A stretch of 64,000 nt of DNA from Astropecten irregularis (lineage: Eukaryota; Echinodermata; Asteroidea; Paxillosida; Astropectinidae). A program made the translations under genes and the position numbers. Below, in pieces: positions 31,862-56,300 of this stretch (positions within the stretch are counted from its first letter, which is position 1; each line of letters starts with the position of its first letter). The stretch lies in the NCBI GenBank assembly GCA_963971285.1, contig OZ020257.1, positions 13,778,602 to 13,842,601 of the forward strand, written 5' to 3'. The notes under the pieces are model-generated. The model was not told the DNA's origin and made no database searches. It was given only the letters and a program-made list of their open reading frames with translations.

Positions 31862-32167
31862 GTTGATTTCACCAAACTCATCGTAACTTACTACCAATCG
31901 TAGGGCTATATGATGCATTGCAGGATTTACAGCCATTCGATACTCTTCTGAAGACGAACAGAGCACACTGTTCGGAACGTCGAGATAATACCACCGGTTC
32001 TTCTCAGAACCACACACTCTCACAGAAGAGATTACATGGTGTCACCGCAAACCTACCTTCTTTTAGTACTTCCACCATGCATAGCTTTAAGTCTTACTTA
32101 GGATACGATGGGTTATCCTTCGTAAGTCGAGTTACGATCGATCGTATAGGTCTTCGTGAAATCGACC
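31862..32167. mobile_element. F3 foldback interrupted by an F8 insertion
   Basis: Left F3 part to GATGCATTGC (about 31919) and right part from TTAGGATACGATGGGTTATC (about 32098) together make one F3 element. The 31921-32093 segment between them is F8 in reverse orientation to 27459-27603. Confidence 0.8.
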
Positions 32168-47479: not shown

Positions 47480-50400
47480 ATGGACTCCACTGTGGTTTCC
47501 ACGGTGTTGGATGCCCTGACCCGCGCATCTAGCCAAGACACAGCAGTCCTCAAGCCAGCGGAGCAGCAACTCAGTTCCTGGGAGACACAGCCAGGGTTCT
47601 ACTCTGTCCTTCAGACCATCTTCTCAAATTATTGCCTTGATGTCAACGTCAGGTGGCTGGCTGTGGTCTACTTCAAGAATGGCATTGAACGCTACTGGCG
47701 AAAGACAGCACCAAAGTAAATAGTCCCATGTCTCTGTCTTTCATTCATGAGATAAATTGATAGCCAGGTGCATTTTATTTATATCTGTGGTCTGTGAATA
47801 TAAAAAGTAAAAGTCCATGTCTCACAACCCTAGAGTAAGACAGGCAAGACCAGGGGCCTGAAGACTCTTTGCCTGGGGAGGCAACTCAATGTCTTCGGTA
47901 CTGGGTCTCTAAAGAGGATCCTTGGGTACCACTGGGTAGACCATGTGTCTAACGAGAGGTTACTGATGGAGAGTCAGATGAGACCCTTATTACCTGCATG
48001 ATGCGTGAGTGCCAGATGTGACTGTACGGTCATGTGGCTAGATTCCCTGCTAGCGATCCTGCCAATCAAATTCTCTCTATGAGAGAACCTACTGGTATGA
48101 CTCGTCCGGTAGGGCGTCCGCATGACACGTGGTTGTGTCAGATGGATCGTTATTTTGCTGAGATGGGGATGGGTCGCGTGGCTGCCTGGGGGATGGCTAT
48201 CAGGAGACCGAAGGAGTACCGCTCGAAGGTAGATGCAGCAATTCGTTGCCGTGGCGCATGTTCCCACTGATTAATTGATTGATTGTGAATATCGGTACAT
48301 CTTACAATTTCTCTTAATAGGTTCCACCCAATTGTAGAAAAGTGTTGTGAGTTGAAAGTTAGTGTGGTTTATGTTATAACATGATTTTTTTTTTTTTTTT
48401 TTTAGTGCCATATCAGAGTCAGAAAAGTCAAAAATCCGGGCGCAGCTGATCTCCAACTTCCAAGAGCCAATTGGACCAGTAGCTACCCAGCTGGCTGTGC
48501 TGATCAGCAGACTGGCTCGCTCCGATTGCCCCCGCAACTGGCCTGAACTCATACCCACACTCCTAGCAGCCATCAGGAGACCAGAACATCTTGAACAACA
48601 GAGGGCGCTGTTGACGTTCCACCACGTCATCAAGACACTGGCTGGAAAGAGGCTAGGACCGGATAGGAAGCTATTCCAAGAGGTATGTATTGCCCATTTT
48701 GTTGGAGACTGTTTTGTTCTGTAATAGTTCAAATCCTATGAAAAGTAAACAGGGAAGGATATTGCAGTTTGAGGTATATCACCCCAAATCAATGACTTTG
48801 CATGACTTTGTGTTTGCATAAACAGCTTACAGCTACTACGTTTAACTTCCTGTTGGAGTTATGGAATACTCACACAGAAGGCTTCTTACACCACGCAGCA
48901 CAAGAAGACCAACACAACATGGCTGTCCTTCTAGAGCTCAGCACTTTGTCTCTTAAAGGTTGGTCTTGATTCTTGAATCCCTATTCCTACTCAGAATCCA
49001 CTTGTGAGTTCCTGCACGTTGAACAGCTAGCTCTACCATCCTGATTACTTGGAGTTAGGAGGGCCTGACGCGTTTCAGTCCTACCAGAATCTTTATCGAT
49101 GGCTAAATGACAAGAGGACAAGAACATGCAAGTAAAGATACACATAAATGGATGAGAGGATCGGAACAAAATAGGGGGAGACCCTCTTGTCATTTCCTTT
49201 GGTAAAGATCCTGCTAGGATCGAAACACGTCAGACCCTCCTAACTCAGCATTAATTATAAATTTCAGGTCATTATTTTGGCTGATGACCAGTTTGCAGCA
49301 GTTTATTACTTGTATACTGATTTCTTGTATTCATTTCATTTGCATTCCAGTTCTTCGTAAGCAGCTTATCTATGGCATAGTGGAGCCAGACAAAAACACT
49401 GATGCAATGGTAAGTAAAAAATGATGAATTTTCCTTAAATTTTATCCAATATCCTCAAATTGCCTTCACTTAAATGACATCTTCAAATTTGCTTCGTTGT
49501 CTTGCAGATGCTGTTGCAACTAGTCTTGCAGAGAATAAGGCCCATTCTTGAAATCCGTAAGTTCATCAAAGTCTTAAGAACAATTTGATAGTATTTGTGG
49601 AGTACTGTGGCCTAGTGGTCTGGCGTGTTGAACTCAAAGTCTTGAGGTCAGTCTATGGATTGTGGGTTCGAATCCAGCCATAGGTTAATGGTGCTTGCGT
49701 CCTTGGGCAAGACGCTCTGTCACATATTGCTCCTCTTCACCCAGGTGTAAATGGGTACCTGCGAGGGTAGAGATGGCTTTGTGGTTTGATTAGCCTCTGT
49801 GCACTGAATACGGTAGCCGGGGCTGTATACTCCCCAGGGAGTTTAGATGGTTTCAGGAATGTAAATTATGGCCCGATGACCAGGGATAATAATAAAGTTG
49901 TAATGCGCAGTAGAGTATATTCATATAGTAGCTGCGCAATATAAATGTCCCATATTATTATTATTATTATTTTGTTTTATCAAAGATGATGATTCAAAGT
50001 CAAACTTGCCCAGATAAACTTCTGTCGTTAGTCTAGCATTTGATGAGAACATGCTTGTTCAAGATCAGACTGATGTAGTCATACACTGTTTGTTCAAAAT
50101 CAGACTGATGTAGTCATACACTGTTTGTTCATAATGAGACTGATGTAGTCATACGTTGCTGTTCATCTCTCAACAGGAGGTCAGTTACAGCCATCCAACC
50201 ATCTAAGAGAAAAGCTGGAGAAGAATATTCTGCTTCTGATGAAAACAGTAAGTGTGTCCTCCGTTCGGTGATTGTTCCCTTGGTGCTCAAACATTGCTAA
50301 TGGCCTTCACAGCCAATTCACTATCTCTTAACCTAAGATGACCATATTTTGTTGAGATGATCCAGGGACAGTGATCCGTGTCCTGGGGGAGGGGTATCAT

Positions 50401-53209
50401 TTTGAAAAATTTTTTAATCCAGTTGGAGCCTACATGCAAAATGGTGGCATCTATGGACATCTTGTCCAGTTGACATGAGTGGGTTACATACTTACATGTC
50501 TTAGGCGGTTGTCTTCGCATACTTCTCTGAAGAATGGATCTTCTTCAGCACAGCATTTTGTCGAATTGGGGACATTTTCGGGGACAATTTTTCATCGGGG
50601 ACGGCACTGTCAAATCGGGGACTGTCCCCGGAAATCGGGGACGTCTGGTCACCTTATCTTAACCGTCACCTTCCCTCAGTCCTTGGAGCTCAGTGTTATC
50701 TGCGTTTTCTTATCGTTTGAATCTTGTCAAGAGGTTACTCTCTGAATGCTTGACTGCTGATCTAAATCTTTCATTTGTCTGTTCTAGCTCCTGGACACGC
50801 AGGATACCTTTCCTCTGTCGTACGTTGCCTTCATCCCTCGGTCCTTGGAGCTCAGTGTTACCTACGTCTTCTTATCCTTTGAATCTTGTCAAGAGATTAC
50901 TCTCTGAATGCTTGATTGATGATCCAATCTTTCATTTGTCTGTTCTAGCTCCTGGACACGCAGGATACGTTTCCTCTGTCATACGTTGCCTTCATTCCTC
51001 GGTCCTTGGAGCTCAGTGTTACCTACGTCTTCTTATTGTTTGAATCTTGTCAAGAGATAACTCTCTGAATGCTTAAATGATGATCCAATCTTTCATTTGT
51101 CTGTTCTAGCTCCTGGACACGCAGGATACGTTTCCTCAGTCCTTGGAGCTCGGCGTTACCTACGTCTTCTTATCCTTTGAATCTTCTCAAGAGATAACTC
51201 TCTGAATGCTTGACTGATGATCCAATCTTTCATTTGTCCATTCCAGCTCTTGGACACGCAGGATACGTTTCCTCTGTCGTACGTTGCCTTCATCCCTCGG
51301 TCCTTGGAGCTCAGCGTTACCTACGTCTTCACGGAGGCTGGCAAGGGGCTCCTGTTTGAACGCTTCATCGTCTTCAACATGAACCTCATCAAGAGCATCA
51401 TCAAGTGCGACTACTATCGCGTGTCAAAGGTCATCGAAGATACCAAAGAGCAAGGGGCAATTGATGCTCACAAGGTCAGAGTTCACATGAATATTCATGT
51501 GACGTTAGACTTTAATTTCCTGGTGTACCGTTGGATCCTTCCTAAAACTGACACCGTTCAGTCCTATGCTGTATCTCTCTGGTACATTCTTGGAACTTGG
51601 GGCCTTTCTCAAAGCTCGGCTCTTGATCAGGCTCAGGCTCAAGCTCCACTTCATGCATCCATTTTGAAATAACGCATATCAAAATAGAGTCTTTTGGCTG
51701 CGTTTCAGAAGTAGATTCTCTGGTTTGAAAAGCAATACAGAGCTTCAGCTTCAATGAAAAACCACAACCTATATTGTCACCATATTGATGACAGAGAAGG
51801 AGCTGAAGCCTGAGCTGGAGCTGAGCTTTGAGAAAAAACCCTTGATCTGCATATAAAGTCACAGTGTCCAGGATTATATGTTGAATGGATTTCATGATAT
51901 TTTGTTTGTGTGATTGTAATTTTTTTCTGGTGTAGGCCAAGAATGAGTTCTTCACTGAGACTACATTAAGGGAAATGTGCCATCGGTTGTTGTCACAGTA
52001 CTTTCTACTAACACAAGAGGTATGTGACTTGAATTATTCTTAATAATCAGCTGCTATCTATTAATATATACCAACAGACCAGGGGCCAATTTCATAAAAC
52101 TGTTAAGCACAAAAATTTGCTTAGCACAAAAATGTCTTGCCCAATAAAAGAAACCACCATTGAAAATTCCATTTGATCTTCATGGTCAGCGAACAACAGC
52201 CAAAGAACAATCACAAGTGATACACAACACGTGGACATAACCCTGTTTTTATTAAGACAGAAATGTCATGCTTAGCAATTTTTTGTGCTTAACAGTTTTA
52301 TGAAATTGGCCCCTGGGGCAATTTCATAGAGCTGCTTAAGCACCCAAGTTTGCTTAAGCACTAAATAAAATCTGTATGTCAGCTAAAACTCCTTGTGAAT
52401 GTTATGCTCAGCAAACAATGGCCGAATACAAGTCAAAAGCAATAAACATCACATGAAAATTTGGTTATACATCTTGTTTGATCAGGGAAGAGTTTGACTG
52501 ATACGAGTCTACTGCGCCTACTTTTGAATTTTTGTTTCAAAGCCATAGTTCATCATTTCACTGTGACACTTTGTTCTGTTTGGCACTGTGACTGTATTTT
52601 GACGTCTTTTTGTCGTTACTTGTTGTTACAGGACTTGGAAATGTGGGAGAATGATCCTGAGGGTTTTACCATTGATGAAGGAGGGGAGTCCTGGAAATTC
52701 ACACTGAGGGTGAGTTATTGAGCAGTTATAAATCAGACATTGCTTCAGCAAAAGGAAATACCACAGTTGCTGGTTCCACTGAAGGCATCTCACATAGAAT
52801 CAAGAGATTTTAACAGGTCCCTGGTTCGAATCCCGCTCCAGTAATTGTATCTTTGTTCATTTTTCTATTATATATATATCACAGTAAAAGAAAAACATTT
52901 GTAACTTGTAGTTGGTGATGGAGGCCATTTTGATGGCCAAATTATTTGTCCTAAACAGGATACCGGCCAAACTGTTATTTGTTTTGTAATATTATTTATG
53001 ACTGGTTCCCAACCTCTTTCTCTTTTCATCGCAGCCATGTACGGAGGTCTTATTCTTAGCCATGTTCCATGCATACAGGGATGTCTTTACTAATGTACTC
53101 CTTCAGATGGTACAGAGTGTTCAAGGTAAAAACCAGACAAAAAACCAAATGCTCATTTGAAATCAAGGGCCTTTTCCAAACCTCGGCTCTGCCTCTGGCT
53201 CTTGCTTCG

Positions 53210-53300
<91 letters not shown>

Positions 53301-56300
53301 CTCAAGACAAGAACCAAATACTCATTTGAAATCAAGGCCCTTCTCCAAACCTCGGCTCTGGCTCCGGCTGTGTCTTTGACTCAGGCTATGGCTCTGGCTC
53401 CGGCTCCGGCTCCAGCTCCAGCTCCATTTTCCTAATCCATTCTTTAATAATGGGATATCAAAATAGAGGCTTTTGGCTTCTGTTCAGAAGAAGATTCTCT
53501 GGTTTGAAAAAGAAAACCTCAACCTACATTTTCAGTATATGATGACAGAGAATGAAGCTGGAGCCGGAGCAGAGGTTTGGAAAATGCCCTAAAACTGCAG
53601 TAATATTTCTTCATGTACTGTTAAACATCTCCTTGACATTGTCTGTTCAGGTATCGTGGAGCCAACCAACATGGATATGCTGCTACAGAAAGAAGCAGGT
53701 AATGTTTAATACCCTTACTTCATTTCACATTCAAACTCAGCCTCTAAAAAAAAGTCCTCTCATTTTGGGCTTTCACTATTTGACAGCAGGGCCAATTTCA
53801 TGGAGCTGCTAAGCACAAAAGAATTGCTTAGCACAAAAATATCAGTAGTAAAACAAACCACCATTAAAAATTCCATTTTATATTCATGGCCAGCGAACAA
53901 CAGCCAAAGAACAATCGCAAGTGATACACAATGCATGGAAATTTGATTGTTAACCCTGTTTTTTATTAAGACGGGAATTTCATGCTTAGCAAATGTTTGT
54001 GCTAAGCAGGGCCATGAAGTTTTCCTTGTTTTCAAGTTACTCTTATTGGCGGTTGTTGGTTTTTTCTTGCAGTATACAATGCCATGGGTCTAGCAGCATT
54101 TGAACTGTTCGATGAGGTGGATTTTGATCAGTGGTTTAGTAATCATCTGCTAGGGGAGCTCAATGACAAACATCCTAGGTGAGTCATCATTTATCCCTCT
54201 ATATCTTCATCTAGCTCTTGGGCCTTTCTCAAAGTTCGGCTCCGGCTCCGGCTCCGGCTCAGGCTCCGGCTTTGTCATCTGTCATTCATATGCTGAAATT
54301 GAAAATATAGGTTGTGGTTTTTCATTGAAGCTGAAGCTCTGTTTTCCTTTTTCAAACCAGAGAATCTACTTCAAAACCACAGCCAAAAGCCTCTATTTTG
54401 ATACCCGTTATTTCAGAATGGATTCACGAAATCAAGCAGGAGCCTGAGCCAGAGCACAGGATTATGTCCAAATTGTTCCTCCAATTATTCTAGAACCAGC
54501 TCATTACCATCCGAGTCAACGTACATTAATGGGAGACTTTTGAGAACCGGTCTTCAGTCAACAGTGCACGCGTAAACCATGCTTGCGCAACTGTGAGCAT
54601 GCGCGTGTTGTTTTGCGTGCGCGTGCGCTGTTGACTTGAAGACCGGTTCTCCAAAGTCTCCAATTGTGCCAACCGTACAGGCCTCAAATCTCATTACAAT
54701 CTATAATGGTCTTGTTCCCTGACTCCTTCAATTGCCTCCTAGATACAAGGTCATCAGGAGACGGGTGATCTGGTTGATCGGCCAGTGGCTTGGCGTTAAG
54801 CTCTCCCCTAGCCTACATCCCACGGTCTACCAGGCGGTCCTACCCCTACTAGCCGAGAACGAAGACTTAGTGGTCAGGATTACAGCGGCTCAGACTCTCA
54901 AAATTGATATCCTTTTATTGAATAGACACTTTCAGTGCTTCTGTGTTTGACCGGGGTCTTGTATTGAGTTAGCTGGGCCCAATTAAAATTTCCGGTGGGG
55001 AAAACCGGGAGATGTTGTCCATGCCATTAATATTCTTCTAAGTTCCTGTTCCTTTCAGGAATAAATCGCGCGCCACGTACCGAGCTTGAGTTGTAGTGCA
55101 TGTAGATGGTAAAACACCACCGCAGTTTCTTTTTTATCAAAAGAGGGCGCCATTCAAGAACTTGTGTTCGGATTGCAGTATATCACAGGAAATCTCACAA
55201 GCTTGTATTTTTGAATCCTTCCAGACGACAAATCAACATTCTTCCTAAATTGGACACCCTCGAGTCTGGAGTCTAAGTCATCGATGTTGAGTTTGTAATA
55301 GCCCAGACGAAGGCCATTGTTTGTCAAATCATGGAAAAATAGTAGCATCTTCCATCTCATCTCTTCGCTCCTTTTATGTATTAGGCCGTGTCCAAAACGG
55401 GCTTCCAGAGCTATGGCTAGGTGTATTGTCTCGGTGTCTCCACATATTTCCAATGGAGCAAAGGCCTAGATCTAACTCTAGATAACAGATTCGGATGCAG
55501 CCCAACAAGCTGACCTTAAGAGCCTAAATTTCAAAGCAGTATTTACTGTTTCCTCCTTAATGTCTCGCACCGGTGGATGATTTTGAGTTCAAGAAGGACA
55601 ACTTCCTTCCGGTAAGTACCAATGAAACAGGTTTTTAAAGGTAGTATCATACTTTGGTAAGAAACCCAAACAGAAATCTTCACAGATTTACTTTTAACTC
55701 ACAGGGTATGAAGATGGTGGAGGTAGAAACGTACCGTTAAAATTTTTCCCCCATAAATGGTGTATTTATCCAGAAATTAGTAAAACAACCACCGAAAATC
55801 TTTTTGATATTTTAAAAGATCAAAAATAAAAGACTTAAGAAATACTGTGGCCGTTTTTCACTGTTTTCTCAAAATGTATGGGACTGAAATTTTCACAGAT
55901 GACTGTTATTGTATCTACCTTGATATTTTTGCCCATGAATCTGCATTTCTTTGACAAAAGCCAAAGTATGATATTACCTTTAAACATCCTGACAGGTTTC
56001 ATATAAGTTTCTAGTCTAATGTCAATAATATGGTAAATCATTGAAAAGTAAACAAAGAAAAATTGACTGGAGCGGGATTCGAACCAGCAGCCTGCGGAAT
56101 ACCATACCAGCGCACTTACCAACTGAGCTACTCAGCCCTATGTTGGTGGTGTCCCTAACGGTAATAGTCAATTATCTATTTTCCTTTATTTCAAAGATTG
56201 AATGATACAAATTTGATGATGAATGTTAACAGGTGTGTATTTGGTTTATATTTGGTTGCAGTATTTGGAGTCTAGCTTTGCTCTCCTCTTCCAGTTGTTA

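Follow-up and report, generated by a model that had tools for sequence, protein, structure and literature searches.

When the 3' end of an intron and the beginning of the following exon are repeated in tandem, one must ask whether the additional acceptors have been put to use by the gene or are simply carried along with it. The question arises at exon 7 of an importin-11 gene in the echinoderm Astropecten irregularis, where a series of incomplete exon copies, here called decoys, stands immediately upstream of the true exon. The first-pass annotation of this locus offered three readings of the decoys, namely a dosage switch ('poison' exon ends), alternative last exons, and neutral tandem expansion. 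Throughout, the window is the whole 64,000-nt stretch of DNA that was analyzed, and all positions without a contig name refer to it.

Gene Model

Judging from the translation of its first exons, the gene is importin-11 (Kap120). These exons match the importin-beta N-terminal domain (IBN_N, E 3.7e-19), and their best match among solved structures is yeast KAP120 (E 2.2e-26), with a karyopherin as the runner-up (9.4e-8); we take Kap120 to be the counterpart of importin-11. Exons 6-8, when searched alone, gave no significant match, and they are presumed to belong to importin-11 on the basis of their order, their frame, and the human protein. The exons were modeled by hand (Table 1), exon 5 being the least sure, and all residue numbers given below depend on this model, in which 275 codons lie ahead of exon 7. 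The introns flanking exon 7 are 999 and 461 nt long.

Table 1. Importin-11 exons, components of the tandem array, and a neighboring repeat in the window
Feature	Position	Strand	Remarks
Importin-11 exon	47480-47715		Hand-made model
Importin-11 exon	48406-48682		Hand-made model
Importin-11 exon	48826-48958		Hand-made model
Importin-11 exon	49351-49409		Hand-made model
Importin-11 exon 5	49508-49556		Hand-made model; least sure exon
35-bp tandem array	50055-50154	+	2.9 copies, just 5' of exon 6 (Tandem Repeats Finder)
Importin-11 exon 6	50177-50247	+	Alternative start 50180; ends in phase 0, then GTAAGT
Importin-11 intron 6	50248-51246		999 nt; 3' end is the tandem array
U0	50668-50709	+	Truncated, diverged piece of exon 7 that has no acceptor of its own; left edge ~50668-50674
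T1	50710-50787	+	Intron 6 tail copy with decoy 1 acceptor CTAG; one additional base
Decoy 1	50788-50871	+	First 84 nt of exon 7, 28 codons
T2	50872-50948	+	Intron tail copy: 11 codons, TGA 50905, decoy 2 acceptor
Decoy 2	50949-51032	+	First 84 nt of exon 7, 28 codons
T3	51033-51109	+	Intron tail copy: TGA 51066, decoy 3 acceptor
Decoy 3	51110-51169	+	Start of exon 7 minus 24 bp in frame; 60 nt, 20 codons
T4	51170-51246	+	Intron tail copy: TGA 51203, true acceptor CCAG
True exon 7	51247-51474	+	228 nt, 76 codons; donor GTCAGA
Importin-11 exon 8	51936-52019	+	

Anatomy of the Array

Tandem Repeats Finder reports a 161-bp period at 50672-51141 (2.9 copies, score 812, 93% matches), overlapped in part by a register of 137 bp (50995-51278), while a repeat search returns four copies with spacings of 161, 161, and 137 and an ungapped identity to the reference copy of 63-100%. 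In each array unit, ~77 nt from the 3' end of intron 6, acceptor included, precede the 84 nt with which exon 7 opens. Exon 7 itself forms the last unit and is intact at the array end, being open across its 228 nt with both acceptor and donor present. A search of the 475.7-Mb, 168-contig assembly that skipped very common words matched the array sequence at a single place, and a dispersed repeat was rejected on that ground.

Both repeat methods, together with translation, bear out the first-pass layout of three units, at 50788, 50949, and 51110, and a fragment ahead of the true exon 7. Some details need amending. A fourth copy of the intron tail (T1) stands between the fragment and decoy 1, and the 28 exon 7 codons credited to every unit are present in copies 1 and 2 but not in copy 3, which keeps 20 codons owing to the one internal deletion; translation and alignment confirm that this deletion is exactly 24 bp. 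The 11 further codons to a TGA can be read in all three copies as described; they are duplicated intron 6 and no added sequence. As both these codons and the stop were copied along with the start of the exon, their presence in every copy needs no selection. The preservation of frame in all copies is likewise true and trivial, because every acceptor meets exon 6 at the identical exon base. The only real test of frame is the single 24-bp deletion, which would be in frame one time in three by chance.

The fragment U0 shares a CCTCAGTCC stretch with decoy 3, and its alignment extends furthest to the left (50668) against copy 3. One might then take it for a truncated derivative of copy 3, but the copy 2 unit aligns with the higher score (165 vs 158 for copy 3) and copy 1 is the nearest over 38 nt, with four differences as against five from the true exon and six from copy 3. 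These comparisons point to different parent units, and a derivation from copy 3 was therefore not adopted.

Splice Signals

Splice sites were scored with a matrix of base frequencies that is not trained on echinoderm sites. Each of the three decoy acceptors scores 2.9, compared with 3.5 for true exon 7 and 7.0 for exon 8, on an acceptor matrix so unspecific that, among 52 AGs examined, those at 50680 in U0 and at 50554 reach 3.1 and 2.7. Branch-site candidates of the form yUnAy occur at -28 to -35 in three of the tails; T3, the tail that precedes decoy 3, is without them.

The first-pass annotation saw no evident donor in the decoys, and our scan is in agreement: the best score between 50788 and 51246 is -2.2, which is not plausible beside the 2.9-5.0 of three true donors. 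The highest donor-like score in T1 (-0.5 at 50734) lies upstream of all decoys. Mutually exclusive tandem exons were considered and rejected, since by this matrix the copies have no plausible donor.

Predicted Outcome of Decoy Splicing

When exon 6 is joined in translation to decoys 1, 2, and 3, a TGA is reached after 39, 39, and 31 codons, which in the hand-made model truncates the protein at residue 314 (decoys 1 and 2) or 306 (decoy 3). From these stops to the exon 7/8 junction there are 570, 409, and 272 nt. Under the nonsense-mediated decay rule, a stop more than ~55 nt upstream of a later junction marks the transcript for destruction; because the decoy stops are 272-570 nt ahead of such a junction, decoy-spliced transcripts are likely substrates. 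The earlier expectation of an importin-11 cut at about residue 310, or of mRNA decay, is thus upheld as a prediction.

How often a decoy would be chosen is a separate matter. Were its acceptor to pair with the exon 7 donor, the resulting exon would measure 687, 526, or 365 nt, as opposed to 228 nt for the true exon. According to a survey of alternative splice sites, exons flanked by large introns favor the sites that are closest to each other across the exon, and of competing 3' sites at least 20 nt apart the upstream one is preferred overall, significantly more weakly for long introns (PMC9225289). The first rule would favor 51247 if introns of 999 and 461 nt count as large. Some use of the decoy acceptors is nevertheless quite possible, given the overall preference for upstream 3' sites.

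Sequence Divergence Between Copies

The intron tails differ from one another at 5-9 of 77 positions. A hand count across the copies of the 11 tail codons gives three nonsynonymous and two synonymous changes; on this count the tail peptide shows no sign of constraint and appears to drift neutrally. Against a neutral reading of the array, the three decoy acceptors are identical over their last 23 nt in T1-T3 (P 0.06).

The exon-derived parts behave differently depending on which copies are compared. Between decoys 1 and 2 and the true exon, all five differing sites are synonymous (neutral P 0.001-0.004 for a transition bias of 1 to 6), although this subset was picked for the test after the data had been seen. 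With copy 3 and U0 added, 6 of 10 changes, counted by hand, are synonymous and P rises to 0.02-0.07; the amino-acid changes are in copy 3 and U0, and copy 3 also carries the deletion. Selection could be acting on the decoy copies. We did not, however, adopt selection on the decoy codons as an explanation, as the pattern of five in five in the subset gives way to 6 of 10 over all copies. We read the synonymous-only differences as a sign that copies 1 and 2 arose recently from the functional exon 7, itself the last unit of the array.

Explanations for the Array

Most probably the array is a neutral intragenic repeat, a 'mirage' in the sense introduced below, with splicing that is mostly normal. 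Slippage or unequal crossing-over would have built it, the additional acceptors arising as by-products. We infer that most pre-mRNAs keep joining exon 6 to 51247, because this acceptor lies closest to the donor of exon 7 and none of the decoys outscores it; leaky use of the decoys would feed nonsense-mediated decay. The array probably does no harm, and the chance that it influences the amount of protein is small. Among the three readings offered at first pass, neutral tandem expansion is the best supported, by the match to amphioxus mirages and by the neutral changes in the tails.

Taken by itself, the array most likely reflects nothing more than the usual turnover of tandem repeats, which are common in this genome: a sample of 130 kb in 13 stretches contains seven distinct arrays with a period of at least 30, counted irrespective of exons and found in 6 of the 13 stretches, and two of the seven are satellite filling a whole 10 kb. 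The adjacent intron, too, has its own array, with a period of 35 bp.

Regulated unproductive splicing, in which the decoys purposely send importin-11 mRNA to decay and their number sets the dosage, we regard as unlikely. It would accommodate three decoy acceptors that score almost as high as the true one, but the scores are unspecific, as the AGs in U0 and further upstream attest. That every decoy reaches a stop well before the next junction is also in keeping with it; decoy 3, though, is without branch-site candidates in the interval where the other tails have them. The synonymous-only differences of decoys 1 and 2 from exon 7 could be counted on its side as well, yet they suit recent descent better, as the amino acids of a poison exon are irrelevant, and decoy 3 and U0 do show amino-acid changes. 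The dosage switch of the first-pass annotation is possible in itself and goes unsupported, since the exon-length argument does not favor the decoys. It is quite unlikely, too, that the decoys constitute a copy-number-tuned brake, each diverting transcripts to decay, with an array length that varies among individuals by unequal crossing-over and a dosage that follows, though nearly identical acceptors and decoys 1 and 2 that depart from exon 7 only synonymously would be compatible with it.

An assembly artefact, whereby a single exon 7 copy was multiplied in assembly, might be suspected of an array seen at one place only, in one assembly. We hold this to be very unlikely, because the pairwise tail differences, together with the 24-bp deletion and a one-base insertion, are unlike copies of the same reads, and because the array totals only about 660 bp.

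Alternative last exons, by which a transcript ends in a decoy tail and yields a stable importin-11 of 306-314 residues, are scarcely credible, for although the frame is open to a stop with no plausible donor, the canonical poly(A) signals AATAAA and ATTAAA are absent from 50701-51500 and the tail peptide varies between copies.

Comparison with Known Systems

The neutral tandem array proposed here has counterparts in lancelets. Mirages are tandem repeats across an intron-exon boundary in amphioxus genes (PMC3087553). In the globin gene BflGb6, units of 150-160 bp, 81-100% identical and numbering six or three per haplotype, consist of the 3' end of an intron together with the 5' portion of the exon after it; many keep their splice signals, and RT-PCR suggested regular splicing (PMC3087553). 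The importin-11 repeats run head to tail, and their unit spans the intron-exon boundary of a coding gene. The anatomy is that of BflGb6, and the unit is of similar size (161 vs 150-160 bp); here, in contrast, the host is an echinoderm, the gene is importin-11, and the array is known from the DNA of one assembly alone.

Further lancelet cases are PGBD5 and the Adh (Adh3) and TnC mirages, whose tandem copies likewise take in splice sites (PMC3902484). The PGBD5 units of 60 and 108 bp, in a region whose splicing is described as unconfirmed by cDNA, differ from ours in size, gene, and phylum; the authors of that study suggest that tandem splice-site copies in lancelets leave accurate splicing undisturbed (PMC3902484).

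An intron can also be gained when coding sequence that carries a proto-splice site is duplicated in tandem, and there, too, duplication within a gene multiplies splice signals (PMC2891723). In the importin-11 array, by contrast, an existing acceptor was copied and there is no new intron, because the copies are without a plausible donor.

Poison exons and unproductive splicing introduce a premature stop, and use of a decoy would do the same, at the distances from the exon 7/8 junction given above. Unlike poison exons, the decoys have no plausible donors and hence are not cassette exons.

Among the matches listed in our search of the open-license literature, no echinoderm mirage was found. As far as its sequence indicates, the importin-11 array would be a new mirage outside the cephalochordates, and it would extend to echinoderms a phenomenon that the literature searched describes only from lancelets. 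If its copy number varies among individuals, these would form a natural series for the study of splicing choice among four similar acceptors.

Other Features of the Window and Assembly

Elsewhere in the window, positions 31991-32035 (+) match the histone 3' UTR stem-loop family (36.1 bits, E 7.9e-07). An Rfam tRNA match at 56064-56137 (-), with 33.2 bits vs a gathering score of 29, received no call from ARAGORN and is possibly a tRNA-derived SINE. A 48-nt inverted repeat (52079-52126 and 52269-52316, 96% complementary, 142 nt between the arms) has similar sequence again at 53789-54003, and it probably represents a small inverted-repeat mobile element. Arrays of GGCTCT-type hexamers are clustered within 1.1 kb, at 53185-53303, 53353-53425, and 54237-54271.

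In the assembly at large, a COX1-like sequence with seven TGA codons (C25:9951047-9952018) is likely a nuclear insertion of mitochondrial DNA, and a COX1 that is open in the standard code (contig C131:32162-33484) is likely a bacterial contaminant. A lancelet origin of the DNA, considered because mirages are described from lancelets, was set aside: translated with code table 9, the mitochondrial COX1 yields the conserved stretches STNHKDIG, DRNVNTTFFDP, and YTLWNT, pointing to an echinoderm. Code table 9 is used by echinoderms and by flatworms too; the mitochondrial COX1 on contig C168 reads sensibly under it, with AAA as Asn.
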